Part shown: one piece after another, positions 356 through 49,949 of the stretch
Layout: the number at the start of each line of letters is the position of its first letter
How positions within the stretch are numbered: the first letter of the stretch is position 1
DNA from: an uncultured Planctomycetota bacterium
GTDB taxonomy: Bacteria; Planctomycetota; Brocadiia; CAIUPP01
Reading direction: 5' to 3'
DNA length: 49,949 bases
Assembly (NCBI GenBank): GCA_903901045.1
Contig: CAIUPP010000037.1
Span: forward strand, 1-49,949
Notes under the pieces: model-generated
The model's database searches: none
What the model was told of the DNA's origin: nothing
Seen by the model: only the letters and a program-made list of their open reading frames with translations
Program-made: the position numbers and the translations under genes

Positions 356-2812
356 ATGAACTCGTGTGTCGCGTCTGAGTTTGCCTCGTGGAATGGAGCG
401 TGCTGGATCTGGCCAGAAACATCGGGACGCCAGCAGAACAGCCACGTGCTATTCCGCAAGTCCTTTTCCCTCAAGCCGCGTGCGCGTCACGCCGTCTGCC
501 GCATCAGTGCCAACACCTTCTATGAACTTTACGTAAATGGCCGATGGGTTGGCCGCGGGCCGGTGCGCTCGGACCCTGCTTGGCAACATGTGGACACGTA
601 CGACGTAACGGCGTATCTAGCCGAAGGCGATAATGTCGTGGCGGTTCACGCTTACCACCACGGCGAAGACCATGTCGGAGTGCTCACGACGTATGCCGGA
701 CCGGGCGGGCTTCTTGCTCAAATCGAGATTGAGTTGGCTGACAGCCAGCATGCCAGCATTGGCACAGATGTGAGTTGGCGCGTGATTCGTGCCCCGCAGT
801 ATGCCACGGATACGGGCTTCATCACCCGGGATCGTGAGGACTACAAAGAGACGTGTGACGCTCGTCTGGAACTGGTCGGCTGGCAAAAGAATGAGTATAA
901 CGACCGCTCATGGCGTTCGGCTGTCGTGCTGGGCACCGTACCTTGCCCGCCGTGGACCCAACTCATTGCGAACCCGCTGCCAGCGATGACCCATGAGACC
1001 GTCTTCCCGCTTAACGTGTTCACCCACCACAGCGGCGGCGCGTACGGCTTCTGCAAGCACGATGTGGTCGCCCCCGAAGCGATGCGCTGCGACGATGATG
1101 CGGTAACCGTGATCTCCCCCGTCGAACCTGACTTCGAGGTGCAGATTCTCTTCGACTTCGGCAAGGCGATGGTGGGACGCTTCCACCTGGATATCGCCGA
1201 CGCGACCGGCGGCGAGGTGTTTATCTCCTATGGGGATTCGCTTGACCTGACGCGGATTGACCATCTCCTCCTTCGGCCCGGCGCTCAATCCTACCAGCCT
1301 TACGAACGCCGCTTTGGACGCTATGTGATGCTGACACTGCGCAACCTCAGCGGGCCGGTAAGCATCCGACGGGCATGGTTCGAACTGGTCACGTACCCCG
1401 TTGAACCGCGCGGCGCGTTTGAGTGCAGCGATCCGATGCTGAATCGAATCTGGGAGGTCGGCCGTTGGACCCTGCGTATGAATATGCACGACCACTACGA
1501 GGACTGCCCGTTCCGCGAACAGATGCTTTACTGCGGCGACGTGCGCGTGGCTTCCCTGTTGGCATATTATACCTTCGGAGACTATGCCCTGGCCCGGGAA
1601 TCCCTGCTCAAACTCGCGCGGATTCAACGCGACAACGGTTCGATTCCCAACTGGGGGTATATTGCAGACAAGTGGCCCACGGTCATTCCGGAGTACCCAG
1701 CCCTGTGGCTGATCACTCTGCATGACTATTGGCTGCATAGCGGTGACGCCTTGCTGGTCGTGGAACTGTGGCCGAACGTGAAGAAGCTGTTGACCTGGTA
1801 TGCGCAATGGCATGACGAGACCGGCCTGATGCGCCAGTTGCCGAATGATCTGCGGGCCGACTTTGTCGACAATCTCTCGGGTATCCCGATGGACGGACCG
1901 GTGCTGGCCGTCCAGTGCTTCTACTATCTGGCGTTGCGCGGCGCGCAACGAATGGCCAAGGTCGCTGGCGACGCCGATACCGCCCGCACGTGTGACAAGC
2001 GCGCGACCCACCTGGCTGAGGCAATCAACGCTCGCTTCTGGGACGAGAAACTCGAAGGGTATCTAAGCTGCCTAAGCGGAATGGGTGAGGAGACGGAGCA
2101 CTTGACACCTGATGTGGATCCGAAACTGAGGCAACCGTTGAGCCAGATCACCAACGGAATGGCGCTCTATGCGGACGTGGTGCCCGATGAACGGCTCAAA
2201 CCCACTCTCCGAACGCTGCTCGAACCAAAGCGCGCTTCACCGGCGCGCTCCGGCTACATGGGTTACTACCTCGTGGAGGCATTGTTCCGCCACCACCAGG
2301 ACACTGACGCCGTCCGCCGTATCCGGGAGTACTGGGGTGGCATGATCGAGCGCGGCGCCACCACGTTCTGGGAAGTCTTCGATCCCAGCATGCCCGAGGG
2401 CCGAGTGCTGGAACGGCTGTGGTCCCTGTGCCACGAGTTCTGCGCCGGGCCGTTGCATAGCCTGCCGCGTCACGTCCTGGGCGTCGAGCCATTGGAGGCC
2501 GGCTTCCGGCGGACCCGCCTCGCCCCGGTGCTGGGTAGCCTCCAGTGGGCCAAGGGGCGCGTGCCTACCCCCCTCGGCGCCGTAACGGTGCATTGGCAGA
2601 TCGTGAACGACGGCCTACTGACCTTAGAGTTCAGCCAACCGGCTGGGATGGAAATGGAAGTCGAGGTCCCGTCGTGCAAGGGCACGCTCACTCATCTGGA
2701 ATTGGACGGCGCCGATCTGTGCGGTCTACTTGGCGTGCAGCCGCCACGAATCAAGTTAGCCTCACCTGCAACGGACGCTGTCCATCATTTGACGGCTCAC
2801 TGGCGACCTTGA
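356..2812 (+). CDS. GH78-type alpha-L-rhamnosidase-like glycoside hydrolase
   Basis: This 818-aa protein has the layout of bacterial alpha-L-rhamnosidases: N-terminal beta-sandwich domains (about 15-190, including a FYELYVNG...GRGP motif for sugar-binding domains), a six-hairpin catalytic barrel (about 370-720) and a C-terminal beta domain. The catalytic segment E382-D-C-P-x-R-E388 followed by G394-D395 matches the conserved acidic region of the family. Family members hydrolyse terminal rhamnose from glycans or glycosides. No signal peptide is visible, so it probably acts on imported oligosaccharides. The ATG is preceded by AGGAG at 345-349 with 6 bp spacing. Rhamnose specificity is inferred; related GH106-like or inactive members cannot be excluded. 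Confidence 0.85.
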   Translation: MNSCVASEFASWNGACWIWPETSGRQQNSHVLFRKSFSLKPRARHAVCRISANTFYELYVNGRWVGRGPVRSDPAWQHVDTYDVTAYLAEGDNVVAVHAYHHGEDHVGVLTTYAGPGGLLAQIEIELADSQHASIGTDVSWRVIRAPQYATDTGFITRDREDYKETCDARLELVGWQKNEYNDRSWRSAVVLGTVPCPPWTQLIANPLPAMTHETVFPLNVFTHHSGGAYGFCKHDVVAPEAMRCDDDAVTVISPVEPDFEVQILFDFGKAMVGRFHLDIADATGGEVFISYGDSLDLTRIDHLLLRPGAQSYQPYERRFGRYVMLTLRNLSGPVSIRRAWFELVTYPVEPRGAFECSDPMLNRIWEVGRWTLRMNMHDHYEDCPFREQMLYCGDVRVASLLAYYTFGDYALARESLLKLARIQRDNGSIPNWGYIADKWPTVIPEYPALWLITLHDYWLHSGDALLVVELWPNVKKLLTWYAQWHDETGLMRQLPNDLRADFVDNLSGIPMDGPVLAVQCFYYLALRGAQRMAKVAGDADTARTCDKRATHLAEAINARFWDEKLEGYLSCLSGMGEETEHLTPDVDPKLRQPLSQITNGMALYADVVPDERLKPTLRTLLEPKRASPARSGYMGYYLVEALFRHHQDTDAVRRIREYWGGMIERGATTFWEVFDPSMPEGRVLERLWSLCHEFCAGPLHSLPRHVLGVEPLEAGFRRTRLAPVLGSLQWAKGRVPTPLGAVTVHWQIVNDGLLTLEFSQPAGMEMEVEVPSCKGTLTHLELDGADLCGLLGVQPPRIKLASPATDAVHHLTAHWRP

Positions 2813-3052
2813 ACAAACAAGTCAAAGGCCGGTGGGCCGTGGTTATGCCGAGAGACCGCTGCACACTCGTAGGCTGTGCTTGAAGGAATAGAGATCCACG
2901 CCGTGAGACGTGACGTGCCGAGACTCGGTTCTTCTGTATGTGCGTTATAGGTGTCGCGGCACACGGAGTTCATATCGGTTCCGTCTGGCCATTGATCGCC
3001 AGACGGAAATAACAGACTCATTTGGACAAACGCCAGTGAAAGGGAGTAAGTC

Positions 3053-4090
3053 ATGCCTTACGCGGGAGTAATGGACGACGTCCGGTCTGCCATCAGAGGG
3101 GCGCGACCCAAGCGCATGCCTTTCTTCGCATGCAGCGAGGAGTTCGACGTGCGCATGGCCGGCGAAGTGTACGAAAAGTACTGCGCCGACAGCAAGATCA
3201 TGGCCAAGGTCCAGAGCAGCGCCGTGGACCGTTTCGGCTACGACTGGTCCTGGATGCAGGTGGACGACTGCATCATCTACGAGCTTCTCGGCGTGGGCGT
3301 GGTGGGCAGCGGCAACATCCTGCGCGCCACCAAGGACTACCGCCCCGCCACGCGGGCGACCCTGGACAGTCTCAAGATGCCCAGCCTCAGAAAGGACGGC
3401 CGCTGCCCCGTCCTCCTGGACGCCATCAAGCGCATGAAGGACAAATACGGCGACACGCTGATGGTCGTCGGCCGCACCGAAGGCCCGTACTCTTCCGCCG
3501 GCCTCCTCTACGGCATCGAGGCGACGAACTTCCTGATGTTCGAGGACGCGGAACTCCTGCGCGACACGATGAAATTCTTCATCGAGCTGCAGAGCGAGTT
3601 CGGCCGCGCGCAGTTCGAGGCCGGCGCCGACGCGCTCTGGTACGGCGACTGCAACGCCAGCAGCCACCTGATGTCGCTGAAGACGTACAAGGAATTTGTT
3701 GTCGGCCCGCTGGCCGCAGTGGTGAAGAACTACAAGGGGCACGGCCTGACCATTCTGCACTCCAGCGAAGAGAAGCCGGACTACGCGGCCGTCATGGCGG
3801 GAACCGGAATCGACATCCTCAGCATCGGGCCGGGCGGCAACCTCGCCGAATGCCACGCCGCCGTGAACAAGAAGTGCGCCGTCATCGGCAACGTGGACCC
3901 GATCGGCGAGTTGATGAATGGCACCCCGGCCTCCGTTGCCAAACAGGTCGAAGGCATCCTGCGGACCGTGTCAGTCAAAGGCGGCCACCTCATCAATTCC
4001 GGCGAGATGGTGCCGCGAGCCACGCCGGAGCAGAACATGATGGCGTTCGGCAACGCCGTCCGCGAGATTTGGCCGAAGGTCGCAGGATAA
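3053..4090 (+). CDS. Uroporphyrinogen decarboxylase (URO-D) family protein, non-haem type
   Basis: This 345-aa TIM-barrel protein carries URO-D superfamily signatures: a central EGPYSSAG segment, a TGIDILSIGPG strand-loop and the C-terminal GNVDP...GTP block. It lacks the N-terminal arginine-rich substrate motif of true HemE. It also lacks the HxC zinc motif of the MtaA/MtbA corrinoid methyltransferases, since the corresponding position reads H236-S-S. It therefore belongs to the large uncharacterised URO-D-like group often found in saccharolytic PVC genomes. GGGAG lies about 8 bp upstream of the ATG. The DegT aminotransferase follows 62 bp downstream on the same strand, suggesting an operon. 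Its substrate is unknown. Confidence 0.75.
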   Translation: MPYAGVMDDVRSAIRGARPKRMPFFACSEEFDVRMAGEVYEKYCADSKIMAKVQSSAVDRFGYDWSWMQVDDCIIYELLGVGVVGSGNILRATKDYRPATRATLDSLKMPSLRKDGRCPVLLDAIKRMKDKYGDTLMVVGRTEGPYSSAGLLYGIEATNFLMFEDAELLRDTMKFFIELQSEFGRAQFEAGADALWYGDCNASSHLMSLKTYKEFVVGPLAAVVKNYKGHGLTILHSSEEKPDYAAVMAGTGIDILSIGPGGNLAECHAAVNKKCAVIGNVDPIGELMNGTPASVAKQVEGILRTVSVKGGHLINSGEMVPRATPEQNMMAFGNAVREIWPKVAG

Positions 4091-4152
4091 CAGGACGCCC
4101 GCGGTCTACGTATCGCCGAGTAAGAGAAACATTTGAAGGGAAGATACTCATT

Positions 4153-5490
4153 ATGGCAAAAGCAAAGACGGGCACGAAGAAGAAGGTCAAGTTCACCGGC
4201 TCGGAATCGGAAGGCGGGATCACGAGTTCATACGAGATGTCCGACGGGGTGAAGCTCAAGGTCCCCTACTCATTCATGGGCTCGATCTATGACAAGGAGG
4301 AGGAGCAGGCGGTCCTGGCGGCAATGAAGCAGGACAGCCTGACGATGGGGCCGCAGGTGAAGCTGTTCCAGAGCGAATTCGCCGCAAAGCACGACGTCAA
4401 GCACGCCTTCGCCGTGAGCAACTGCACGACAGGGATGCACCTGTGCACGCAGCTTTTCCAGATCAAGCCCGGCGACGAGGTGATCGTCACGCCCAACACC
4501 TTCATCGCCACCAGCCTGGTGATCCTGAAGGAGAACGCCATCCCGGTGTACGCGGACATCGACCCGCGCACGTTCAACATCGACCCGAAGGAGATCGAGA
4601 AGAAGATCACCAAAAAGACCAAGGCGATCTACGTGGTCCACTACGGCGGCCTCATGTGCGACATGGACCCGATCATGGCGCTGGCGAAGAAGCACAAGCT
4701 GTACGTGCTGGAAGACTGCGCACATGCCCCCAACGCGGAGTACAAGGGACGCAAGGCCGGCTCCATCGGCGACGTGGGGGTGTTCAGCTTCCACAGCCTC
4801 AAGAACATGACCACCTGCGGCGAAGGCGGGATGATCACCAGCAATCACGACGAGTGGGTCGAGCCGATCGAGGCGCTGCGCTGCATGAACCTCGATCACT
4901 ACAAGCCCGGCCAGACGCACTGGGAGTACAGCGGCGGCATTGTGATGGAGAAGAAGACCAAGTACGACTACTGGATTCCGAGCCACTTCGACGTCAAGGA
5001 TATCGCCGGGTACTGGGGGAACAACTACCGGATGAACGAAATCCAGGCGGCGGTGGGCCGGGTGCAGATCAAGAAGCTGGACATGCTCACCGACAAGCGC
5101 GTCGCGTTCGGGCGCGCCATCAGCGAAGGGATCAAGGGAATCAAAGGGGTCACCCCCGTCTACGAGCCGAGCTACGCCAAGCACGTGTACCACCTGTATA
5201 CGCTGTGCGTCGAGGAGAAGGAACTGGGGTGCGGGCGCGACGACTTCCTGCGCATCCTCTACGTCGAGGAGGGGGTGCAGGGGATTCTGCACTACCAGCC
5301 GACGTACCATTTCAGCGGGCTGAAGAAGATGGGGATCACCGGCAACTGCCCGAACGCGGAGGCCTTCTTCTACAAGCGCGAGATGAACCTGCCGATGCAT
5401 CCACGGTTGACCCAGCAGAACATCCAGGACACCATCGCCGGCATCCGCAGCGCCGCCGCAAAGGCGCGCAAGGGGTATCGGATTAGGTGA
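4153..5490 (+). CDS. DegT/DnrJ/EryC1/StrS family PLP aminotransferase
   Basis: This 445-aa protein has the fold-type I aminotransferase signatures of the DegT family: TMGP near residue 65, an NCTTGMHL loop, EDCAHA, and the lysine segment FSFHSLKN with K217 as probable PLP Schiff-base lysine, followed by CGEGG. Family members usually transaminate keto-sugar nucleotides; some are dehydratases or regulators. The ATG at 4153 was chosen because a GAAGGGA lies ~12 bp upstream and homology begins shortly after; the frame stays open further upstream only through overlap with the preceding gene. The first ~20 residues are a lysine-rich extension, longer than usual. It follows the URO-D-like gene and is probably co-transcribed. 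Confidence 0.88.
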   Translation: MAKAKTGTKKKVKFTGSESEGGITSSYEMSDGVKLKVPYSFMGSIYDKEEEQAVLAAMKQDSLTMGPQVKLFQSEFAAKHDVKHAFAVSNCTTGMHLCTQLFQIKPGDEVIVTPNTFIATSLVILKENAIPVYADIDPRTFNIDPKEIEKKITKKTKAIYVVHYGGLMCDMDPIMALAKKHKLYVLEDCAHAPNAEYKGRKAGSIGDVGVFSFHSLKNMTTCGEGGMITSNHDEWVEPIEALRCMNLDHYKPGQTHWEYSGGIVMEKKTKYDYWIPSHFDVKDIAGYWGNNYRMNEIQAAVGRVQIKKLDMLTDKRVAFGRAISEGIKGIKGVTPVYEPSYAKHVYHLYTLCVEEKELGCGRDDFLRILYVEEGVQGILHYQPTYHFSGLKKMGITGNCPNAEAFFYKREMNLPMHPRLTQQNIQDTIAGIRSAAAKARKGYRIR

Positions 5491-7983: not shown

Positions 7984-8040
7984 CGTAACCTCCCGTGGTA
8001 ATGTAACAGGGTTCCATGCCCACGAGAGGGCCACCGGAGA

Positions 8041-8466
8041 CTACGTGGTGCTGGCCAGTACACGCTGTCGGCGTTTGCTGTACAAGCCCGGGGCCACAAG
8101 CTGGAGAATTTCATCTCCTTCAAAGGTAATGGCTTGTGGCAACAGACCAAGCACCAGTCGTTGTCCCGGCGTTTCGTTCACAAAGGACCAAGTTCGCCCG
8201 CCCCGACCATTTTGCAAGAGAAGCCCTTCGGCCAACAGGTCGAAGGGCTTTCTCATTGTCACCATTAGTTTTCTCCCCTGTAGTGTCCAGTTCAACCCGA
8301 TCAGTTCGAGTATTCGCCGCTTCTCCGGGTAATCAGCCATAAGCCAACGCTCGTGAAGGTGTTGCGCGAGTTCAAACGCTTTTATCGTAATCTCCGTATT
8401 TTGGTCTTCACCCACATCTATCGCTTCAAGTTGTAGCTTCAACTGATCACAGGAAGGCTGGACCAA
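8041..8466 (-). pseudogene. C-terminal stub of a second serine recombinase
   Basis: The frame encodes YPEKRRILELIGLNW followed by MRKPFDLLAEG, the distinctive C-terminal signature of another serine recombinase type. The catalytic, Recombinase and zinc-ribbon domains are absent. The frame stays open upstream to a stop at 8641-8643, but that ~58-codon extension shows no recombinase similarity. This suggests a deletion or rearrangement joined the stub to unrelated sequence. The nominal start is a TTG without a convincing Shine-Dalgarno. The stub differs from the C-terminus of the intact recombinase 57 bp away, so it is not a simple duplicate. It marks a site of repeated mobile-element insertion. 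Confidence 0.6.
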
Positions 8467-8849
8467 CCCGAATTCGTTGCGAAATCCTTCATCTCGATCT
8501 CCCGAAAATCCAATTATGTGGAGACCGAACAGGATATCAGAACCAACACTCCAGCCGCAGATTACACCGGGATGAAATTCTGGACAGCACGCGCCGTAAA
8601 TTGCCGGGTCTTGCCGAGCGAGTGCCGCCAGTGCCGGGCATCAACCGCCTCGACTCCTGCGGCGACTCAGTTACCGCCACGCCGGGTCTGGAGGTCGCGG
8701 GGTCAAGTCACCCCATGGCCAATCACATGGCACTACGCTCTTGCCGTCAAGGCCGACTGCGTTAGTCAGAGAGGATTTCATTTCAGATGCGTTCCCTTCG
8801 CCATTCGACCGGAGAGAAGTGCTCTCCGGATATGAGACTGGATTTCGAG
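8467..8849. other. Gene-poor stretch next to the recombinase stub
   Basis: No reading frame here has convincing family similarity, start site and codon pattern. It is probably residual mobile-element DNA plus the upstream region of the following plus-strand genes. Confidence 0.5.
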
Positions 8850-8855
8850 TATAAT
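8850..8855 (+). promoter_or_regulatory. Candidate -10 element upstream of the small ORF and MBL gene
   Basis: A perfect TATAAT lies 69 bp upstream of the possible small gene at 8924. No good -35 hexamer is visible 16-18 bp upstream (the best position reads GGATAT), so the assignment is weak. Confidence 0.3.
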
Positions 8856-8923
8856 GCCCCATCGTTGCGCGACGTGAGTGTAAGCTTTTCACGCTTCCAG
8901 AAATAGAACCTCCGGGGAGCGCC

Positions 8924-9094
8924 ATGAGCACAATCAGAAGAGCGTATGTTGAAGTCTCTGCTCCAGGCGGCCCCCGCCGCATCGTGCGGAATGGCGGCGT
9001 CCGCTTCCCCCTTCGGTCCGCAACAAGTTCCGTGGCCTTTGACGTTCACCTCAACTCGATATCTGACGCATTGATAAACGCTGACAAAGGGTGA
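8924..9094 (+). CDS. Possible 56-aa protein of unknown function
   Basis: This short frame starts with ATG 4 bp after GGGGAG and ends in TGA 25 bp before the MBL-fold gene. The product has an N-terminal basic segment (MSTIRRAYVEV), a central glycine/arginine part and an acidic C-terminus (SISDALINADKG). Codon use is GC-rich in third positions, as in its neighbours. No family is recognised. The ribosome-binding site, spacing and possible upstream -10 box make translation credible. Confidence 0.4.
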   Translation: MSTIRRAYVEVSAPGGPRRIVRNGGVRFPLRSATSSVAFDVHLNSISDALINADKG

Positions 9095-9119
9095 CCGAGT
9101 TCTTGGAAGGGAACATCCC

Positions 9120-9848
9120 GTGCGAATCGGCAACTTCGCGGTGGCGTACCTGTCACACGCGTGCTTCAGATTCACGACTCCGGAAGGCAAGGTTCTGTTG
9201 ACCGATCCGTTCTTCAGCCCGGGCTTCAAATGGCAGAATCACATTGAGCGGCGTCTTACTCCTTCGTACGTGCCCGTATCGGCGATCAAGGTCTGCGACA
9301 TCATCTTTGTGTCGCACATCCACGGCGACCACTACGATGCAAACGCCATTCTGGCCATCCACGCCGCCACTCACGCAAGGGTGCTAGCCCCGCCCGATGT
9401 GCTTGAGTCCCTTGCTGCAAGGGGGATGGAAGATTCATCTCTGCTTGTCGCTTCAGAAGGCGAACTCTTCCGCTTCGGCGATTTAACGATTCATACGTAT
9501 GCCGGTTATGACGAGTCGTTCGATGCGCAGGGACGACCGAACAAGTTCTCTTTGGTGGCCGAAACCGGGGCTACGCGCCTTTTCTACAGCGGCGACTGCC
9601 ACCACCTGCCTCCGGCCGTGAGGGGCATGAAGGTCGAGGCCATGTTCTGCTGGCCTCACCCGAAGGACGACAAACTTGTGGGTTTGGTCAAAGGCCTCGA
9701 AGCCCGATGCTTCGTGCTTATGCATGGCGACCGATTTGAGCCCGGCAGGTTCTTCTGCAACTTCAACTATGCCGCCCAGAAGAAGCGCATGGCTACGCTC
9801 TGCCCTGAGCAGGAAGTCGTGATCCCGAAGCGGACGAAGCGGCTGTAG
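9120..9848 (+). CDS. MBL-fold metallo-hydrolase (UlaG/YycJ-like)
   Basis: This 242-aa protein has the metallo-beta-lactamase signature H66-I-H68-G-D70-H71, the SGDCHH strand that supplies the bridging aspartate, and a C-terminal LMHGDRF supplying the last histidine. This is a complete dinuclear metal site. The LSHACFRF and TDPFFSPG segments resemble UlaG-like phosphodiesterases or lactonases that act on small molecules. Translation begins at GTG, preceded by GGAAGGGAA. No signal peptide is present, so it is cytoplasmic. It may be coupled with the 56-aa ORF upstream. Its substrate is unknown. Confidence 0.82.
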   Translation: MRIGNFAVAYLSHACFRFTTPEGKVLLTDPFFSPGFKWQNHIERRLTPSYVPVSAIKVCDIIFVSHIHGDHYDANAILAIHAATHARVLAPPDVLESLAARGMEDSSLLVASEGELFRFGDLTIHTYAGYDESFDAQGRPNKFSLVAETGATRLFYSGDCHHLPPAVRGMKVEAMFCWPHPKDDKLVGLVKGLEARCFVLMHGDRFEPGRFFCNFNYAAQKKRMATLCPEQEVVIPKRTKRL

Positions 9849-41891: not shown

Positions 41892-41965
41892 TGGCGCTCG
41901 GGACTGGATTTGAACCCGCAGGGGTTTGCCCCTCACCCAGACATCGAGACACAAACTCATGCCAG
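41892..41965 (-). ncRNA. tRNA-like 3' terminus (T-arm, acceptor 3' strand and CCA), 5' part not foldable
   Basis: On the minus strand, GCGGG TTCAAAT CCAGT forms a T-arm with a 7-nt loop and one mismatch, then CCCGAGC-G-CCA fits an acceptor 3' strand with encoded CCA. A short AGGGG-CAAA-CCCCT hairpin before it resembles a class II variable arm. No matching 5' acceptor (GCTCGGG) or good anticodon arm is found upstream. It may be a degenerate tRNA, the 3' fragment left by element integration, or another RNA with a tRNA-like end. The terminator right after it favours a once-transcribed gene. The upstream limit is arbitrary. Confidence 0.45.
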
Positions 41966-42105
41966 GCGCGACCGACATTGATTCAACAACTTATAGCACA
42001 GCAGTGCTGTTACGTCAATTCTCTGAATTCGCACTCATTGCCAAAGGAGCGCCAGTACGGTCCCGCACCACGCGGCGAATGATTCCCCTCGCGCAAATCG
42101 GCCTT

Positions 42106-43227
42106 TCACCGGGACATTGCCGCCCAGGGCAGCGCCAGATTGATGCAAACGAAGCAGGGCAGCAGGACGGCAAAGGAGACGATGTCGAACACGCGCGCCA
42201 ATCGCGCCCGCCCGCACGTGCCGGCCATGTGCAGTGAGATCGTCGACTGAACGAGAACCAGGAAGATGGTGCTCAGGCCGACCGTATTGACCATTCCGGT
42301 CAGCGTGACCCGGTCCACATGGGGAAGCATCGCCCCGACGAAGACGTTATTGGCCACCGCGGCGAAGAACGCCCCCACCGGCAGAGTGAAACGGGTGTTG
42401 TCATAAGTCGCCAGGACGAAGAGAGTGACCAGGGCAACGGCCACCGAGGCGAAGAGCGCCTGGAACATCATCCAATACACACTAACGCTCAGAGGCGCCA
42501 CGAGCATCGCGAAGACCAGCCTGGAGCGGACGCTTCTCGCGCCGCCCGGGGCCGCGGCCCCCAGGTCGTCCCGGTGCGTCGTCGCAACCACGAAGCTGCG
42601 TTTGAGCCTCACAAGCCGGGGCAGTCCGTCCGGGTCCAGGCCGCTGCCGGCGTCATCGGCGACGAACCGAAGCGTCGCGGCTTCGTGGCGGCTGTCCTGA
42701 ATTTCAACGGCCAGCCCCTCATCGGCGAAGGGAAACCGCGAAGGATCGAACTCCGTGGTCATCCGCGCCGTAACGTGGTACCGTTCGTAATTCTCTCCAT
42801 CACGCACGCCCGACTCAATCCGCTCCCGGCTTTGGATATCGCCATTGACCAGTTCAAAGTTCTCCCCGGGATGGAGCGTCTCGCCGGACCAGCGGAACCA
42901 GACGTCGAAGTCCGCCGTCCAGCCGGCATCCTTCAGGGAGAAGTCGCGCACGTGCCGGATGTAAACGCCCGCTGTCACATTACCCGGCGCGTTCTCGGCC
43001 GTCGCGCCGTGCACACTCGCGGCTTCCAGCCAGGCGTGGCGTCTGGCCTCCGTCTGGTTCCTGTAGCCGCTGAGTTGGCGAACCCCAAACCCGCCGCCGA
43101 TGACGTAAATGAGAATCAGTCCCGCCGCCCAGATCGCCATGAGCCAGCGCTCTCGGCCGCTGATCGAGTCCTTCAAGGCGCGCCCCCCCGCTCCGGAGCC
43201 CGCCCCGGCAATTCCTTCTGTCGTCAT
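42106..43227 (-). CDS. Membrane protein resembling prokaryotic pentameric ligand-gated ion channels
   Basis: This 373-aa protein has an N-terminal helix (about 28-48), an external beta-rich domain (about 75-230) and four or five C-terminal helices. The external part carries VYIRHVRDFSLKDAGWTADF then DVWFRW, and later YERYHVTA with FPFADEGLAVEIQ. These match the loop and FPF(D) positions of Cys-loop-like bacterial channels, although no Cys-loop disulfide is seen. The extra N-terminal helix and helix count differ from GLIC and ELIC. The ATG was preferred over an upstream TTG. It lies 37 bp downstream of a PAS-PP2C phosphatase gene. Channel activity is inferred from the architecture only. Confidence 0.6.
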   Translation of the reverse strand: MTTEGIAGAGSGAGGRALKDSISGRERWLMAIWAAGLILIYVIGGGFGVRQLSGYRNQTEARRHAWLEAASVHGATAENAPGNVTAGVYIRHVRDFSLKDAGWTADFDVWFRWSGETLHPGENFELVNGDIQSRERIESGVRDGENYERYHVTARMTTEFDPSRFPFADEGLAVEIQDSRHEAATLRFVADDAGSGLDPDGLPRLVRLKRSFVVATTHRDDLGAAAPGGARSVRSRLVFAMLVAPLSVSVYWMMFQALFASVAVALVTLFVLATYDNTRFTLPVGAFFAAVANNVFVGAMLPHVDRVTLTGMVNTVGLSTIFLVLVQSTISLHMAGTCGRARLARVFDIVSFAVLLPCFVCINLALPWAAMSR

Positions 43228-43264
43228 GGTCTTCACTCTCAAGACTTGGCTGACGCCCCTGTTT

Positions 43265-44371
43265 TCACTGACGGCGAAGTTCGAGCAAAGTCAGATCGTC
43301 GTCGAAGCGAACCCGGTCTGAGAAGAGCAGGAGCGCCTTCTCCACGGCGCTCAGCTCAACGTCAGTCCGCGGATAGCCTGCGCGGGCAAGCACGTCCACC
43401 AGTCCGTCCACGCCGAGGCGGCCTCCTTGCTGCAAAGTGACCTCGGTAGCGCCGTCTGTGGCCAGGAGGAGGCTGTCACCGCTGTTGAACGGCACGGTCA
43501 CTTCGCTGTAGGCCGCGCCGGTCATGATGCCCAGCGGCAGGCCGGTGCAGTCTATCTTCTGGACCGATCCATCGGCGCGGAATAGCAGCGGTTCCGGATT
43601 CCCGGCCCCGGTCACCTGGAGCGTATTGCTGGCCAGGTCGATCATTCCGCACGTCGCCGCCGCAAAGGCGCCCTCCTCGTCCATGAGATCGCATAGCCCT
43701 CGGCTGATCGTTTCGGCAAACTTGCGCGGCCGGTGGAGCAATTCGCGATGCTCTTTCCACAGGGGATAAAGACACAGGGTGTAGAGCCCGGCGGCGATGC
43801 CGTGTCCGCTGACGTCCGCCAGGAGGAAGCCATAGCGGTCCTCATCCAACTGGCAGGCCGTCACGAAATCCCCCCCGACGATATCCACAGCCACCGTGTG
43901 CGACTTGAAGGTGATCCTGGGGTCCGGAGGAACATCGAGCCGCATGGCGCGCGCCTGTATCTTCTGCGCGCGCTGGAAGTCGCGGATTTCCAGCGACAAA
44001 TCCCTGAACGTCTCAACGCCGCCGATGACGCGCCCGCCGGCGTCGTGGACCGGCGCCACGCTGACGCGCACCGGCACGCGCGATCCATCCTTCCTTTTGG
44101 CGAAGACGATGATCGGCACGGAGCTTGAGTTGCCCGTGACAATCGCCCGATGCAGGGGACAATGTTCTTCTCCGCACAACCGCCGGCCGTCCTTATCCTC
44201 ATGGCACAGGACGTCGTCATAGCAGCTCTTGCCGATGATATCGCCGGCCGTCCATCCGGTGATGCGCTGCGCCGACGGATTCCAGTAGCGGATGCGCCGT
44301 TCAGTGTCCGTCACATACACGCCGTCATTGACGGAATCCAGCACGCTCAGAGGATCCGGCATCGCTTGCAT
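43265..44371 (-). CDS. PAS domain and PP2C-type (SpoIIE/RsbU) serine phosphatase
   Basis: This 368-aa protein has an N-terminal PAS/PAC sensor (about 1-130; GVYVTDTERRIRYWNP) and a PP2C/SpoIIE phosphatase domain (about 150-368). Metal-binding acidic motifs are VGGDFV, LADVSGHGIAAGL, LLLATDGATEV and FDDDLTLL. RsbU-like phosphatases dephosphorylate anti-anti-sigma factors in partner-switching signalling. No such partner is in the window. AAGGAG precedes the ATG. The channel-like gene follows 37 bp downstream, suggesting a shared transcript. Confidence 0.88.
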   Translation of the reverse strand: MQAMPDPLSVLDSVNDGVYVTDTERRIRYWNPSAQRITGWTAGDIIGKSCYDDVLCHEDKDGRRLCGEEHCPLHRAIVTGNSSSVPIIVFAKRKDGSRVPVRVSVAPVHDAGGRVIGGVETFRDLSLEIRDFQRAQKIQARAMRLDVPPDPRITFKSHTVAVDIVGGDFVTACQLDEDRYGFLLADVSGHGIAAGLYTLCLYPLWKEHRELLHRPRKFAETISRGLCDLMDEEGAFAAATCGMIDLASNTLQVTGAGNPEPLLFRADGSVQKIDCTGLPLGIMTGAAYSEVTVPFNSGDSLLLATDGATEVTLQQGGRLGVDGLVDVLARAGYPRTDVELSAVEKALLLFSDRVRFDDDLTLLELRRQ

Positions 44372-44414: not shown

Positions 44415-45605
44415 TCAGAGCGCCATCACTCCTTCGGCGAGCTGCCCGCGTCGCAGCAGGTCGGCCATGAGACGCATCTTCTTGTCCGCGTGTTTAAAGA
44501 AAGCCTTGTACCCCGGGCAGAGGTAATTCAGCCTCCGCTGCCCGTCGGGTGTCTCGACGAAGCGGTTCTTGGGACACTCGCCGTTGCACACGAAAAGCAC
44601 ATCGCATTCCCGGCAGCATTGCGGCAGGGTATCCCTCTTGTGGCGGCCGAATTTCCTCTGCTTTTCCGAGGCCACCAGTTCGATCATCGGCGTGGTGAGA
44701 ATGTTCCCCAGGAAGCCGTTCGGCTCCACAAAGTGATCGCACGAATAGAGATCGCCGTTATGCTCCAGCGCCATCCCCAAGCCGCACGTGGGGCCGAAGA
44801 CGCACACCGTGCCCGCCATTCCCAGCCAGCCGGCCAGCGCCCCGTCAAAGTTCAGGACGAAGCTCTTCCCCACGTCCTGCTTCACCCACTCGTCGAAGAT
44901 TTCGATCAGGAAGCGCCCCCATTGTTCCGGCCGAACGGAGCGGCTCGTGACCTCGCTCCCCTCCTGGAACCCGCTTTCGCTTTCCCGCTCCACGATCGGA
45001 ATGAACTGGATGTACTGCGTGCGGGCTTCGTCCCGGAAGAACCGATAGACCTCCAGGGGATGATCGGCGTTCCTGGAATTGACCGTGCACAGGACGTTGA
45101 ACTCGACGTTATGTTTCTGGAGCAGCCGGACGGCCTTTATAACGCGGTCGAACGTCCCGTGGCCCCCCTTGTCCTGCCGGTGCGCGTCATGAAACTCTTT
45201 CGGACCGTCCAGGCTCAGGCCGACAAGAAAGTTATTGTCGTGAAAGAACCGGCACCACTCGTCGTTGAGGAGAATGCCGTTGGTCTGAAAGGTGTTCTCA
45301 ACCCGGACGCCGGGCTTCCGATATTTCTTCTGAAGTTCCACGGACCGGCGGTAGAAATCGAGCCCCATCAAAGTCGGCTCCCCCCCCTGCCAGGCAACGA
45401 TCACGTCGGGGATCTGGTGGGCTTCCATGATCTGGCGGATATAGGCTTCATGCACCTCAGCCGTCATGCGGAACTTGCTGCCGGGATAAAGCTTCTCCTT
45501 CTTCAGGAAGAAGCAATAGGCGCAATTTAAATTGCAGGCTGAGCCCGTCGGCTTGGCCATGATGTGAAAAGCTCTGGGCGGAGCGCTTGAAGCCGTATCG
45601 GTCAT
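44415..45605 (-). CDS. Anaerobic sulfatase-maturating radical SAM enzyme
   Basis: This 396-aa protein oxidises the active-site cysteine (or serine) of sulfatases to formylglycine. The radical SAM cluster motif is C24-N-L-N-C28-A-Y-C31, and the C-terminal SPASM region has the further cysteines of two auxiliary clusters (CGLGMALEHNGDLYSCDHF, CCRECDVLFVCNGECP). VAWQGGEPTL is also typical of the family. The start at 45605 has GGAGAG upstream and overlaps the stop of the preceding membrane-protein gene (ATGA). A Cys-type sulfatase lies two genes upstream in the same orientation and is its probable target. Confidence 0.93.
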   Translation of the reverse strand: MTDTASSAPPRAFHIMAKPTGSACNLNCAYCFFLKKEKLYPGSKFRMTAEVHEAYIRQIMEAHQIPDVIVAWQGGEPTLMGLDFYRRSVELQKKYRKPGVRVENTFQTNGILLNDEWCRFFHDNNFLVGLSLDGPKEFHDAHRQDKGGHGTFDRVIKAVRLLQKHNVEFNVLCTVNSRNADHPLEVYRFFRDEARTQYIQFIPIVERESESGFQEGSEVTSRSVRPEQWGRFLIEIFDEWVKQDVGKSFVLNFDGALAGWLGMAGTVCVFGPTCGLGMALEHNGDLYSCDHFVEPNGFLGNILTTPMIELVASEKQRKFGRHKRDTLPQCCRECDVLFVCNGECPKNRFVETPDGQRRLNYLCPGYKAFFKHADKKMRLMADLLRRGQLAEGVMAL

Positions 45606-45994
45606 ACCCGCACTCTCCAAGCGCGAAGACTGGTCGCGCACCAAACAGCCATAGCCGCGTGAAGCGCCACGGCGGGCCACAGCGCAACGCCGGACATGCA
45701 CATCAACGCTCCCGCCATCGCCAGCAGAACGGATGCGCCTGCGTTATATATGAGCATTCCCCAGAGCAGGGCATACTGCGAACGACTCCCGCCGTCGTCA
45801 CGCGCCAGCCAGCAGGCGACCCCAATGGCCAGCAGGGCCGCGGCGCAGAGCCGCGCCGCCATCAGCGCCTCCGGCGACGGCTCCCTGGCACTGAGCAACA
45901 GTCCAAGTGCCGGTGAGGGCACGCAAAGCAGAGCGAGGCCCGCGCCAGCCTCTATCGCAGCGGTCGCAATGAACAACTTCCTTCGCGAATTCAT
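45602..45994 (-). CDS. Small integral membrane protein of the sulfatase operon
   Basis: This 130-aa protein has four hydrophobic segments and short charged loops. I do not recognise the family. It resembles generic four-helix inner-membrane proteins. It overlaps the maturase start by four bases and follows the sulfatase by about 60 bp, so it is translationally coupled to the maturase. The start at 45994 has GGGGAAAG 6 bp upstream; an earlier in-frame ATG lies 21 bp upstream. Confidence 0.6.
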   Translation of the reverse strand: MNSRRKLFIATAAIEAGAGLALLCVPSPALGLLLSAREPSPEALMAARLCAAALLAIGVACWLARDDGGSRSQYALLWGMLIYNAGASVLLAMAGALMCMSGVALWPAVALHAAMAVWCATSLRAWRVRV

Positions 45995-46053
45995 CCGAAC
46001 TTTCCCCGTCTCCACAAGGCGACCCGGCTGCCGTTCAACTCATGAAACCGGAG

Positions 46054-47580
46054 CTAGTGCTTGGCGCTGCCCGACGCAGCCTCCAGCTTTGCCATCACCG
46101 CGCTCAAGTTGAACGAGGCCGGCTTCTGCCGCGGCGGAAACTTGATGAAGTCTTCGAGTTGCTGCGCCACGAGCGCCTGCATGCCGTAGATCAGGAAGGC
46201 ATGGGACAATATCCAATCCCAATAGGTGTTCGAGTTCTCGTAAGCCCGCTCGAAGGGATCGCGCCGCAGGTTGAAGATATGCGGCACGCGCAGAGCCACG
46301 AAGGGCTCGGCCCAGCACTCGCACGTCTTTGCGCGCTGTTCCAGGAGCGTCGCCTTCCAGTCCTCGTAGCGGATCGCCATGACGTCTCCGTCGTCGCTGA
46401 AGTAGAAGAAGAACTTTCGCGGGCTGTCCTTGACCTGTCCCGTCAGATAGGGAACCATGTTGTAGCTGTCGAGATGGACCTTGAAGGTCTTGTCCCCCGC
46501 CTTGTAGCCCGCGAGCAGTTTCTCCTTAATGCCCGGCTGCCCGGCGGCGGCCAGCAGCGTCTCCGCCCAGTCCTGGTGGGTAACGATTCCATTGAGCACC
46601 GTGCCCGCCTTGATCTTTCCGGGCCAGCGCACGAACGCCGGAACCCGCCACGCGCCTTCCCAGTTGGTGTCCTTCTCGCGGGCGAACGGCGTGATGCCGG
46701 CGTCCGGCCAACTGTTGTAGTGCGGGCCGTTGTCCGTGGAGTACATGACGAGGGTGTTGTCGGCAATCCCCAGATCATCGAGCTTCTTGAGCATCATGCC
46801 GATGTGCTCATCGTGGGCGACCATCCGGTCGTTGTAGTCCCCCTGCCCGCTCTTGCCCTTGTGCTTCTCGGCAACGTGGGTGCGGAAGTGCATGGCCGTG
46901 GTGTTGTACCAGACGAAGAAGGGCTTGCCCGCCTTGTTTGCCTTGTCGATGAAGTTCAAGGCGCCGGCGGTGATCTCATCGTCGATGGTTTCCATGCGCT
47001 TGATGGTGAGAGCGCCCGTGTCCTCGATCTTCTGCTTGCCCACCTTGCCCCAGCGCGGCTGCACCGTCGCGTCGTCCTTGTCGGTCGCAAAGCAGTGGAG
47101 CACGCCTCTGGGGCCGAAATGCGCCTTGAAAGCCGGGTCCTTGGGGTAGTCCGGGAGTTCCGGCTCCTCTTCCGCGTTCAAGTGGTAGAGGTTGCCGAAG
47201 AACTCGTCGAATCCGTGCACGGTCGGCAGGAACTCATTCTTGTCGCCGAGGTGGTTCTTGCCGAACTGGCCGGTGGCGTATCCCAGGGGCTTGAGCAATT
47301 CGGCGATGGTCGGGTCTTCCGCGTGAAGACCCACGTCGGACCCGGGCAGACCGACCTTGGTCAGCCCCGTGCGGATGGGGCTCTGGCCGGTGATGAACGC
47401 CGCGCGGCCGGCCGTGCAGCTCTGCTGACCGTAGTAATCGGTGAAGCAGACCCCTTCGTTGGCGACGCGGTCGATGTTCGGCGTCCGGTACCCCATTTGG
47501 CCGCGGCTGTTGAAACTGATGTTCCACCAGCCGATATCATCTCCCCAGAGAATGAGGATGTTCGGTTGCTTGGTTGCCAC
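46054..47580 (-). CDS. Arylsulfatase, formylglycine-dependent, Cys type
   Basis: This 508-aa sulfatase hydrolyses sulfate esters through a formylglycine made from C55 in the motif C55-T-A-G-R59. This is the C-x-A-x-R variant of the classic CxPxR. Metal-site residues D14-D15 (ILWGDDIG) and the downstream STDNGPHYNSW segment agree. The start is a GTG at 47580 with AGGAGGAAC directly upstream; the product begins MATKQPNILI without a signal peptide, so it should be cytoplasmic. The maturase downstream can act on such motifs. The substrate, possibly a sulfated saccharide imported by the cell, is unknown. Confidence 0.93.
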   Translation of the reverse strand: MATKQPNILILWGDDIGWWNISFNSRGQMGYRTPNIDRVANEGVCFTDYYGQQSCTAGRAAFITGQSPIRTGLTKVGLPGSDVGLHAEDPTIAELLKPLGYATGQFGKNHLGDKNEFLPTVHGFDEFFGNLYHLNAEEEPELPDYPKDPAFKAHFGPRGVLHCFATDKDDATVQPRWGKVGKQKIEDTGALTIKRMETIDDEITAGALNFIDKANKAGKPFFVWYNTTAMHFRTHVAEKHKGKSGQGDYNDRMVAHDEHIGMMLKKLDDLGIADNTLVMYSTDNGPHYNSWPDAGITPFAREKDTNWEGAWRVPAFVRWPGKIKAGTVLNGIVTHQDWAETLLAAAGQPGIKEKLLAGYKAGDKTFKVHLDSYNMVPYLTGQVKDSPRKFFFYFSDDGDVMAIRYEDWKATLLEQRAKTCECWAEPFVALRVPHIFNLRRDPFERAYENSNTYWDWILSHAFLIYGMQALVAQQLEDFIKFPPRQKPASFNLSAVMAKLEAASGSAKH

Positions 47581-47715
47581 GCCAGTTCCTCCTGTTCTTG
47601 TACTGCGGCATTGGAGATCGTTGCGCGCCTTCACACTATGTGGATATTGCTCCGTCTCTGCGGGCACACGGCTTGGATTTTCTTCACTTCATTCCTTCGC
47701 CTCCCTCCCACCTCT

Positions 47716-48489
47716 TCACGGGGCGCGCATCTTCTGTTGCAGATCGACCATGGCCTGCTGGCTGACCTTAATCAGCCCCTCCTGCGGACGGTCCAGGTCG
47801 GCCGTCAGGCATAGAACGACTGAGAACGAAAGGGCCAACGCCAGCTCGATGAGGGCGAAGTTCTTCCCGCTCATCCCGAGTTGAACCCCCGCCATGCCCA
47901 TGGCGAGCATGGCCAGAACGTACAGGGCCACCCATATGGCAGCCGGAATGCGGTCCCGCACGCCGACCTTGACCCGTTCCAGGTGCAGGTCGATCATTTC
48001 GTTCAGCGATTGGACAAACAGTCCCACCGCAATCGACCCCGTCTCCGACCGTCCGATCTCCGCGGCCCTGGCCCAGAGCTGATCCTGAAGGGCGTCCGAG
48101 CGCCGCATCGCCTGCTCTAACTCCTTCCACTGGGCCGGGACCGCGTCAGATCGCAGGTCCACATATTCCTTCAGGAGGCCGCGAATGTCGGAACGGTACG
48201 GCTCGGGCAGGAGGCCGGCGCGCAGCCAGGTCGTCCCGATCGCATTCACTTCCTGCACGACGAGGTTCTTTCTGGCGTCGTAGCGGACGGCGGCTGAGTT
48301 GAAGGTGAAACCCAGCATGAAAGCGAGCAACCCCATCGCCGACGCGACCAAAACGCCGGCCGAGTCGCCCTTTCCTTCCCCGGGGGACCTGTTCCTTCTC
48401 CCTACGAGGAAGCCGGCCCCGATGGCAAGCATGACCACCGCCATCGTTCCCATGAAGATCGCCCACAGAGGCACGCTATCGAGGTGCAT
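47716..48489 (-). CDS. Membrane protein of the DUF4239/bestrophin-like type
   Basis: This 257-aa protein has two N-terminal helices (about 8-28 and 45-65), a long cytoplasmic helical region (about 70-175, rich in Glu/Arg/Leu) and two C-terminal helices (about 185-230). The VASAMGLLAFMLGFTFNSA segment and following RYDARKNLVVQEVNAIGTTWLR are typical of DUF4239 proteins, which show remote similarity to bestrophin anion channels. Function is unproven. The Shine-Dalgarno is weak (AGGAAAGG, ~13 bp upstream). It follows the DUF2092-like gene by 26 bp. Confidence 0.7.
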   Translation of the reverse strand: MHLDSVPLWAIFMGTMAVVMLAIGAGFLVGRRNRSPGEGKGDSAGVLVASAMGLLAFMLGFTFNSAAVRYDARKNLVVQEVNAIGTTWLRAGLLPEPYRSDIRGLLKEYVDLRSDAVPAQWKELEQAMRRSDALQDQLWARAAEIGRSETGSIAVGLFVQSLNEMIDLHLERVKVGVRDRIPAAIWVALYVLAMLAMGMAGVQLGMSGKNFALIELALALSFSVVLCLTADLDRPQEGLIKVSQQAMVDLQQKMRAP

Positions 48490-48515: not shown

Positions 48516-49949
48516 CTATTGCGCCGGAATGACGGCGGACGATTTGTTGACAGTGCGGAACGTCAGATCGACCTTGGTAGCGCCCGCCCGGATCACATAC
48601 GCAAACGCCTCGTTCGGCACCGCGGCGGTATCGAACGAGTCAATCTGCATCGTATACCTGGGCCGGGCGGGCACCTGGGGATACGAAATGCTCACTTTGC
48701 GGATCAGCGGCTGGTCGCCCGTGGCAACCCAAATCTCCACATCCCTGTCCTGCGTCGTAAAGCCGAGATGGTGACACTCGCCGCCGCCTATCGTATCGAC
48801 GCCGATGTACTCGGCGGTCTGGACTTTCGGCACCACGCGCTCGTAGAGATCGGTTCGCAGCAACTCGGTCACGGGCAGCGTGGCGCCGTAGTTCTGCGCG
48901 ATCTTCTCCAGGGCGACGTCAATTGTCCCGGGAATCTGAGCCTGCCCGTACGCGTCCTTCTTCAGGTCCAGGAACGTCAGGGTCAAACCGTCGTAGACCA
49001 CCCGCCGGGAATTATTGTCACTGCTGTATTGAATGCTCACCTTGTTCGGGCGGCGCAGGAAGATCGTGCGCTGGCTGGTGAAGGACACCTTCTGCCCCGC
49101 TTCGGTCAGTTCGTCGTACGAATCGGTGACGGTCATCGTGAACTGTTCCAGACCCGCGAGGTACCCGAGTCCGGCCTTGAGAATTTCGAGCGGACTGGCC
49201 GTCTCCGTGATCACCGGCTGCGGCGTCGCCGGCTGCGGATTGGGATCCTGGACGACCTGGTACCCTTCCTGGCCGTTCTGGGTGGTCTTCGCGTAATACG
49301 CGTCGTCATACTGATAGTACGTGTTGTCGTTGACAACCACGGGAGTGACCGGCTCATCGCTCTCCCACGGAGTCGTGGAGGTCCAGTAGCCCTCGGGCGG
49401 ATAGACCGGCTGGTACCACACCTCATCATTGTTCCAGCAGGGCGCGTACCAGTAGCCATGGTTGTACCAGTAGTCATTGCCTCTCCAGGCGGTCTTGACG
49501 CTGCCATCGGGGAGGCGCGCGACGGCGGCGGTTCCCTGGCGAGTCCGGACGGTCGCCACCCCATTGCCTTCGGGGCCGCGAATATATGTCGCCGTGCCAA
49601 TGGGACCGCGAATGATCCCCGCCGAACCGCCGTTGGGCCCTACCACGGTCCGTCCCCTGTCCGCGGGGTTCGGCAGCATGGATTGCCCTGTGATCGAACC
49701 ATAGTTGGCCGGGCGGTAGGTTGAACCCGCCGCTGTGCCCGTGCCCTGAGCGATCGGGGTTGCGGGGCGCACGGGGGGCCGCGGAGTGACGGGGTTATTG
49801 GCGGGCCGAGCCACAGGCGCGGGCGGCGCAGGCCGCGCTGCGGGAGCCTGCCAGGCGGGCCGGGCATCGCGCGCTGGCGGCGCCTGTCGCGCTTGAGGGG
49901 CCTGTGGCGCAGGTCGCGCAACGCGCGCGGGTGCGGCCGGCCGGGCTGC
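48516..49949 (-). CDS. DUF2092-like protein with Pro/Ala/Arg-rich region (5' end outside window)
   Basis: The frame is open from the right edge to a stop at 48516, about 477 residues. The C-terminal ~250 residues (from ILKAGLGYLAGLEQFTMTVTDSYDE) match the DUF2092 pattern, related to LolA/LolB-like folds that bind lipids (RRPNKVSIQYSSD, VVYDGLTLTFLD). Before it lies a Tyr/Trp-rich segment (YWYNHGYWYAPCWNNDEVWY), and at the window edge a repetitive Pro/Ala/Arg/Gln stretch (ARPAPQAPQARQAPPAR). The signal peptide would lie outside the window. It is probably an envelope-associated protein. Confidence 0.7.
   Translation of the reverse strand, partial: AARPAAPARVARPAPQAPQARQAPPARDARPAWQAPAARPAPPAPVARPANNPVTPRPPVRPATPIAQGTGTAAGSTYRPANYGSITGQSMLPNPADRGRTVVGPNGGSAGIIRGPIGTATYIRGPEGNGVATVRTRQGTAAVARLPDGSVKTAWRGNDYWYNHGYWYAPCWNNDEVWYQPVYPPEGYWTSTTPWESDEPVTPVVVNDNTYYQYDDAYYAKTTQNGQEGYQVVQDPNPQPATPQPVITETASPLEILKAGLGYLAGLEQFTMTVTDSYDELTEAGQKVSFTSQRTIFLRRPNKVSIQYSSDNNSRRVVYDGLTLTFLDLKKDAYGQAQIPGTIDVALEKIAQNYGATLPVTELLRTDLYERVVPKVQTAEYIGVDTIGGGECHHLGFTTQDRDVEIWVATGDQPLIRKVSISYPQVPARPRYTMQIDSFDTAAVPNEAFAYVIRAGATKVDLTFRTVNKSSAVIPAQ

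Follow-up and report, generated by a model that had tools for sequence, protein, structure and literature searches.

Contig CAIUPP010000037.1 of an uncultured Planctomycetota bacterium was analysed over its whole length of 49,949 nucleotides (the window). A gene at positions 42106 to 43242 probably encodes a bacterial pentameric ligand-gated ion channel (pLGIC) subunit that retains an additional N-terminal membrane helix and whose likeliest role lies in the context of a sulfatase gene cassette; nothing indicates a functional tie to the phosphatase encoded beside it. The computed elements of this reading are the fold, the order of the structural elements, an N-terminal helix found throughout a clade of relatives, and the loss of an Asp–Arg contact and of the beta-9 aromatic residue in one subclade. 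All window features described below lie on the minus strand. Counted from a TTG codon, the channel protein has 378 amino acid residues; the ATG at 43227 is the likelier start (373 aa).

Fold and relatives of the channel protein

The AlphaFold2 monomer model was built from an alignment of the channel protein with 36 relatives (37 rows, alignment A4) and reached a pLDDT of 90.7 and a pTM of 0.86. From the N-terminus it consists of a helix (residues 24–71), a series of strands (82–245) and four C-terminal helices. The strands form a beta-sandwich domain predicted as periplasmic, i.e. extracellular in receptor terms (42493..42984). The predicted transmembrane domain (residues 248–371, 42115..42486) comprises M1 (approximately 248–270, with a DSSP break at residue 255), M2 (276–298), M3 (309–336) and M4 (341–371). 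The additional N-terminal helix of the original prediction is thus present in the model; its "perhaps five" C-terminal helices were rejected in favour of the four membrane segments M1–M4.

All 50 matches listed by Foldseek (best E 5.8e-18) and all 50 listed by the VIA structural comparison (Z 22.7–23.8, 274–286 residues aligned) were pLGICs, led by GABA-A receptors, GLIC, GluCl and sTeLIC. No non-channel fold stood at the top of either search, and the pLGIC-type fold is supported by the model and settled as far as prediction reaches. The best VIA match listed was the GABA-A beta-3 homomer (Z 23.8, 2.4 Å over 282 residues, 14% identity). The VIA alignments span residues 76–373 and leave the N-terminal helix uncovered. 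A profile from the 37 aligned rows matched GLIC along its length in the PDB (E ~1e-23); a single-sequence phmmer search of the PDB was weak (best E 0.1), and all 54 matches listed were GLIC or GLIC chimeras. Pfam model PF02931 matches 20 of the 37 rows.

The external domain had been described as resembling that of Cys-loop receptors. The receptor-type beta-sandwich is indeed there; the domain contains no cysteine, so the protein lacks the Cys-loop pair and does not belong to the Cys-loop receptors in the narrow sense. Its only three cysteines are found close to the C-terminus, in the M3–M4 part, and by its residues the protein is a Cys-less "Pro-loop" type pLGIC. A second pLGIC, of another subgroup and with a Neur_chan_LBD match above the cut-off, is encoded in the window's own genome (L002:1009-2049, contig C123).

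Within the phylum, 19 of 392 genomes had a channel match, the window's own among them. The alignment-based scan of genome contigs confirmed 120 loci, of which the best 80 were used and 40 weaker relatives left out; a single-sequence scan of the contigs confirmed none of 234 stretches. In the class of the genome with locus L054, two of 46 genomes had a channel match, both already in the set. Counts are taken from A4 and not from alignment A1, which contains a wrong frame of L041 and the frameshifted L035; L060 and L061, with broken frames, were left out of A4. For the tree (67 rows) near-copies from Azospirillum were thinned and short calls dropped, and the first protein of L106 was entered twice. 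The window protein falls in a clade of 24 rows (clade A, support 100/99; 21 rows in A4). Within this clade it forms a subclade, again with support 100/99, with the proteins of L052, L053 and L054. These three are contigs of metagenome-assembled genomes (MAGs) of Deltaproteobacteria or Syntrophobacterales, and the window comes from another phylum.

Conserved positions and ion conduction

The putative pore helix M2 (residues 276–298, 42334..42402) reads N-2', R0', T2', G6', F9', A13' and V16', the prime numbers following the numbering of GLIC. The cationic residue at 0' (R279) and the proline between M2 and M3 (P302) are both in place. Arginine occupies 0' in 37/37 rows. A hydrophobic or aromatic residue stands at 9' in 35 of them, and glycine in L056 and L058. 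At other sites the protein has diverged. Table 1 of PMC4795631 lists the seven best-conserved pLGIC positions, with frequencies of 93% for the Asp of the FPxD motif, 94% for the Arg preceding M1, 77% for the Pro in M1 and 100% for the Pro of the beta6–beta7 loop. In the Pro loop (FPFA, residues 165–168, 42724..42735) Phe and Pro are kept, Pro166 being invariant in the alignment, and the Asp is replaced by Ala (A168). The pre-M1 position is Pro245 (42493..42495), where 32 of the 37 rows have Arg, and the beta-9 aromatic is replaced by Val206.

Both partners of the Asp–Arg contact are present in 31/37 rows and both absent in four, namely the window protein and its subclade relatives L052, L053 and L054. 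The beta-9 aromatic, too, is missing from these four proteins and kept in 33/33 others. Single losses occur in L064 (pre-M1 Arg) and L088 (FPxD Asp). Among the 17 clade A rows of A4 outside the subclade the Asp is found in 17 and the Arg in 16. Since the four proteins without the contact form one branch of the tree, a single ancestral change is a better reading than four. In L052 an Arg lies one column off the pre-M1 position and could, judging by the alignment, be a partial stand-in. The M1 proline is absent from the window protein and from 34 of the 37 rows, which makes its absence a family trait. The missing Asp, Arg, beta-9 aromatic and M1 Pro mark divergence; the superfamily is not defined by them.

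Several results weigh against a conducting pLGIC. The channel protein matches no Pfam or NCBIfam model, and the monomer model is uninformative on pentamers. Four of the seven positions in Table 1 of PMC4795631 are missing, Phe165, Pro166 and the M2–M3 proline being those kept. The -2' residue is Asn, as opposed to Asp in 33/37 rows and Glu in one. With these positions gone and Asn at -2', conduction could be lost while the pLGIC fold is kept, and the protein would then serve as an anchored periplasmic sensor or scaffold, or else assist another channel as an auxiliary subunit. The tandem pLGIC genes of related loci, described below, fit auxiliary subunits, and the available text of PMC5760087 reports the GLIC mutant D122A as nonfunctional and weakly expressed and D122N as not expressed. 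The same text names ELIC and the alpha-GluCl of Caenorhabditis elegans as exceptions to the conserved Asp–Arg interaction, so that a missing contact need not kill function. Together with the conservation of 0' and 9' and the family-wide absence of the M1 proline, these exceptions make a non-conducting protein unlikely, and a channel subunit remains the preferred reading.

The neighbouring PAS–SpoIIE phosphatase

Upstream of the channel gene, at a distance of 22–37 bp depending on the start chosen, lies a gene on the same strand for a PAS–SpoIIE (PP2C) protein of 368 residues (43265..44371). Its SpoIIE domain matches PF07228 with E 2e-34. The metal-binding motifs GGDF, DVSGHG, DGATE and DDLT are all present, as is proper to a PAS–PP2C phosphatase. 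The PAS domain contains four cysteines, at residues 50, 56, 66 and 71, a pattern suggestive of a possible metal or Fe–S site.

The original prediction saw in the two genes an unusual signalling pair. With a SpoIIE profile built on 22 sequences, 93 channel loci were searched in all six reading frames, namely the best 80 of the 120 relatives and 13 others that are partly the same places. Only L086 and L080 contained a SpoIIE domain, both belonging to the set of 80. Some 2.1 are expected by chance in these 80 loci (1.11 Mb), taking as sole yardstick the density in the window's genome of nine SpoIIE per 4.77 Mb; SpoIIE is therefore no commoner at channel loci than chance. The three loci nearest to the window, L052, L053 and L054, gave no match to the profile. 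In L080 the SpoIIE gene is parted from the channel gene by two genes on the opposite strand. In L086, an alphaproteobacterial MAG with a more distant channel, a dCache_3–HAMP–SpoIIE gene (1241-3388, PF07228 E 9e-23) precedes the channel gene (3427-4380) on the same strand with a gap of 38 bp; its product keeps GGDF, and the other three catalytic motifs are not in their usual form. Adjacency thus occurs in one of 80 loci, with a different architecture. A tblastn search of these loci with the window phosphatase gave a single partial match, again in L086.

The neighbourhoods were also viewed from the phosphatase. Near full-length relatives in the 294 genomes searched are a paralogue from the window's own genome (40% identity), G147 (37%) and G088 (36%); a relative in G193 has 31% identity. 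The stretches around these four phosphatase relatives yielded no channel, sulfatase or maturase match by tblastn. Six genomes with channel relatives contained no high-identity match spanning both phosphatase domains, and no plasmid match was found at 1e-25. A conserved channel–phosphatase pair was rejected on these counts; a pair restricted to the window's lineage may exist, as the genomes searched included only one other of the same family, whose sole match was a different paralogue.

The two proteins might still act as one signalling unit, in which a signal sensed by the PAS domain, or else ion flux, regulates the phosphatase, and the target STAS protein is encoded elsewhere. The tight spacing on one strand, the intact catalytic motifs, the independent adjacency in L086 and a genome with matches to five STAS and 12 HATPase_c_2 domains, besides the nine SpoIIE, would suit such a unit. 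Yet the chance-level frequency, the different sensor and altered motifs in L086, the absence of SpoIIE from the three nearest channel relatives and of channels beside the four phosphatase relatives render it improbable. Neither a STAS nor an anti-sigma gene is found among the seven genes of the cassette; the STAS and HATPase_c_2 matches of the genome are on other contigs, and its clearest partner-switching module, where STAS, HATPase_c_2 and SpoIIE adjoin one another, is at C3:19000-20336. The PAS–SpoIIE gene is probably a local addition to the cassette, or its passenger, and a chance neighbour of the channel gene; the adjacency in L086 leaves a small chance of a meaningful phosphatase–channel association in the channel family.

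The N-terminal helix

The predicted N-terminal helix comprises residues 24–71 (43015..43158), with a membrane part at about 30–52 followed by a periplasmic continuation. The pLDDT is 94–98 for residues 21–60, and the helix is unbroken to residue 71. By arithmetic its 48 residues extend over ~72 Å, enough to cross the membrane and reach along part of the extracellular domain. The columns of residues 22–61 are free of gaps in all 21 clade A rows, with Trp33 in 20 and Arg27 in 14 of them. The 16 rows outside clade A have N-termini resembling signal peptides, and there the same columns are variable or missing. In 19 of the 21 clade A rows 10–28 residues precede the hydrophobic core, compared with 0–16 in the other rows; the two remaining ones have 49 and 98, perhaps from mis-called starts. 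An AxA signal-peptidase motif follows the helix in 11/21 clade A rows, the window protein included, and in 13/16 others. Since this test separates no groups, the reading of the helix as a signal anchor is based on its conservation, on the length of the preceding tail and on its unbroken course in the model; together these indicate that the helix is apparently an uncleaved signal anchor. An ordinary signal peptide whose cleavage leaves a standard four-helix subunit would match the bacterial pLGICs examined in the available text of PMC549065 (all with signal peptide, ligand domain and four helices), the look of the 16 rows outside clade A and the AxA motifs, but is very improbable in view of the helix continuing to residue 71, the longer tail ahead of the core, the near-invariant Trp33 and the ungapped segment after the helix.

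The sulfatase cassette and other gene neighbourhoods

In the terminal 8 kb of the window seven minus-strand genes stand in a row, each starting at most about 140 bp from where the preceding one ends, and probably form one unit, to judge by their spacing; the stretch 42106–44371 takes in its final two genes only. In 5' to 3' order they encode a DUF2092/DUF6515 protein (48516..49949, from a domain search), a Bestrophin-like membrane protein (47716..48489, PF14023), a sulfatase with a CTAGR site (CxAxR; 46054..47667, from domain and motif searches), a hydrophobic membrane protein of 137 residues without a Pfam or NCBIfam family match (45602..46015), an anaerobic sulfatase maturase (44415..45701; TIGR03942, 494 bits, cut-off 349), the PAS–SpoIIE protein and the channel. 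As the window is the whole contig, the first gene is cut by the contig end. A weak terminator-like hairpin (41959..41978) lies 3' of the channel gene; eight such sites occur in the stretch, with 5.9 expected by chance. A promoter scan returned no site on the minus strand. ARAGORN and Rfam found no RNA gene in the stretches searched, which includes window positions ~41894-41945, where a likeness to the 3' part of a tRNA was seen by eye.

When the cassette proteins were compared with the 80 channel loci by tblastn, the maturase had relatives of 74–76% identity in L052 and L054 and the sulfatase one of 73% in L054. A sulfatase profile matched only L052, L053, L054, L066 and L080; it had been made with the sulfatases found in the window and at L052, L054 and L066 and is biased towards these places. 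Sulfatase matches thus occur within the fetched stretch of all three nearest relatives and of two among the remaining 77 loci (Fisher p 1.2e-4). Beyond the subclade, clade A has no sulfatase excess (1/21 versus 1/56 outside the clade, p 0.47, with L061 counted inside the clade and L060 outside), and the link comes from three fragmentary MAG contigs that possibly share one inherited arrangement; both facts weaken the tie between channel and sulfatase. By gene content, the link is one of the four-member subclade and not of clade A at large. The identity to relatives, ~75% for the maturase versus ~42% for the channel, points to unequal rates of change or to transfer in separate events. The idea that the channel has its fixed home in this cassette was rejected on two loci: L132 (Paraburkholderia) has a sulfatase of 79% identity adjoining a maturase and L133 (Methylobacterium) one of 61% adjoining a formylglycine-generating enzyme, and neither stretch has a channel, PAS–SpoIIE, DUF2092 or Bestrophin-like match.

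Further membrane proteins were noted at these loci. The sulfatase cluster of L054 contains, beside the clade A channel, a second protein of 618 residues with a Neur_chan_LBD match (L054:13951-15807). In L053 (3134-4883) sulfatase pieces and an MscS/MscK-like channel domain lie in overlapping frames, one of which joins both, either as a fusion or as an assembly fault. In a cyanobacterial MAG, a Bestrophin_2 gene ends 2 bp ahead of a clade A channel gene (L110:6943-7983 and 7986-9212); the window cassette, too, has a Bestrophin-like gene.

In one Bacteroidota and two gammaproteobacterial contigs, a clade A channel gene is immediately preceded, at a distance of 15–65 bp, by a long pLGIC gene (L067:5853-7979 and 7995-9092; L071:523-2664 and 2728-3831; L076:1585-3726 and 3792-4773). 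The long proteins have ~710 residues, and those of L067 and L071 contain a Cache-type sensor (PF22673). From this arrangement the pairs are candidate two-subunit channels. Other tandem pLGIC-like pairs occur in deltaproteobacterial or myxococcal contigs (L082:57-2164, L106:6952-8999 and L123:2031-4153), with partners that fall in different parts of the tree. In Azospirillum, a channel gene of the signal-peptide type follows genes for IcmF, ImpA and Hcp (type VI secretion) and UPF0114 on the same strand (L091:1515-8873); among the loci listed this order recurs in L090, L091, L100 and L103.

Proposed function and significance

Five subunits would assemble in the inner membrane, with the extracellular domain facing the periplasm, M2 lining the pore and Phe288 (9') acting as the gate. 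The uncleaved N-terminal helix may be retained at the rim, where it would be the fifth to cross the membrane, and then climb the outside of the extracellular domain up to the top. With the usual salt bridge missing, the gating force must take other contacts across the domain interface, possibly by way of the added helix. Given the position of the channel gene at the end of a sulfatase cassette, the channel would most likely respond with an ion flux either to a small molecule or to the state of the envelope while sulfate esters are used.

More tentatively, the five-helix pLGICs with a retained signal anchor might be a separate bacterial lineage, whose sulfatase-tied branch rewired its coupling without the Asp–Arg bridge, perhaps via the added helix. 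In some members of the lineage, a neighbouring Cache-pLGIC subunit may join the channel protein in a mixed pentamer.

For the synaptic receptors of this family, the step from ligand binding to pore opening is taken to depend on a salt bridge that joins the extracellular domain to the pre-M1 region. A branch that lacks both partners of this contact and an aromatic core residue, and has kept M2, is a natural test of whether the bridge is dispensable. The conserved extra membrane helix would be an architecture covered by none of the 50 VIA matches listed, and the sulfatase neighbourhood provides a hint of physiological context. As of 2016, the consulted portion of PMC4795631 states, none of the pLGICs of unicellular organisms had a known biological role.

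Comparison with known systems

Bacterial pLGICs, including fusions with Cache and periplasmic-binding-protein (PBP) domains, are already known. In the open-access literature searched, no report was found of a pLGIC having a fifth membrane helix or a sulfatase neighbour, nor any description of the N-helix clade and its branch without the salt bridge. The window phosphatase resembles RsbP-type PAS–PP2C phosphatases in the order of its PAS and SpoIIE/PP2C domains and differs in having no adjoining STAS or anti-sigma gene. GLIC, the proton-gated pLGIC of Gloeobacter, shares with the window protein the beta-sandwich and M1–M4 (Z up to 22.9); the D122–R192 salt bridge described for GLIC in the available text of PMC5760087 is absent from the window protein, whose N-terminal helix lies outside the aligned part. 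The animal Cys-loop receptors (GABA-A, GluCl, glycine and nicotinic) reach the highest VIA Z among the matches listed, but have the Cys-loop cysteines that the window protein lacks and no counterpart of its extra helix. DeCLIC and the Cache- or PBP-fused bacterial pLGICs likewise carry an added N-terminal part, which in the portions consulted of PMC12664993 and PMC549065 is a folded periplasmic domain, in contrast to the membrane helix without a sensor domain in the window protein. The other clade A channels (e.g. L055–L058, L062–L073 and L110) share the N-terminal helix and the membrane domain and, unlike the subclade of the window protein, have kept the FPxD Asp and the pre-M1 Arg in all or nearly all members.

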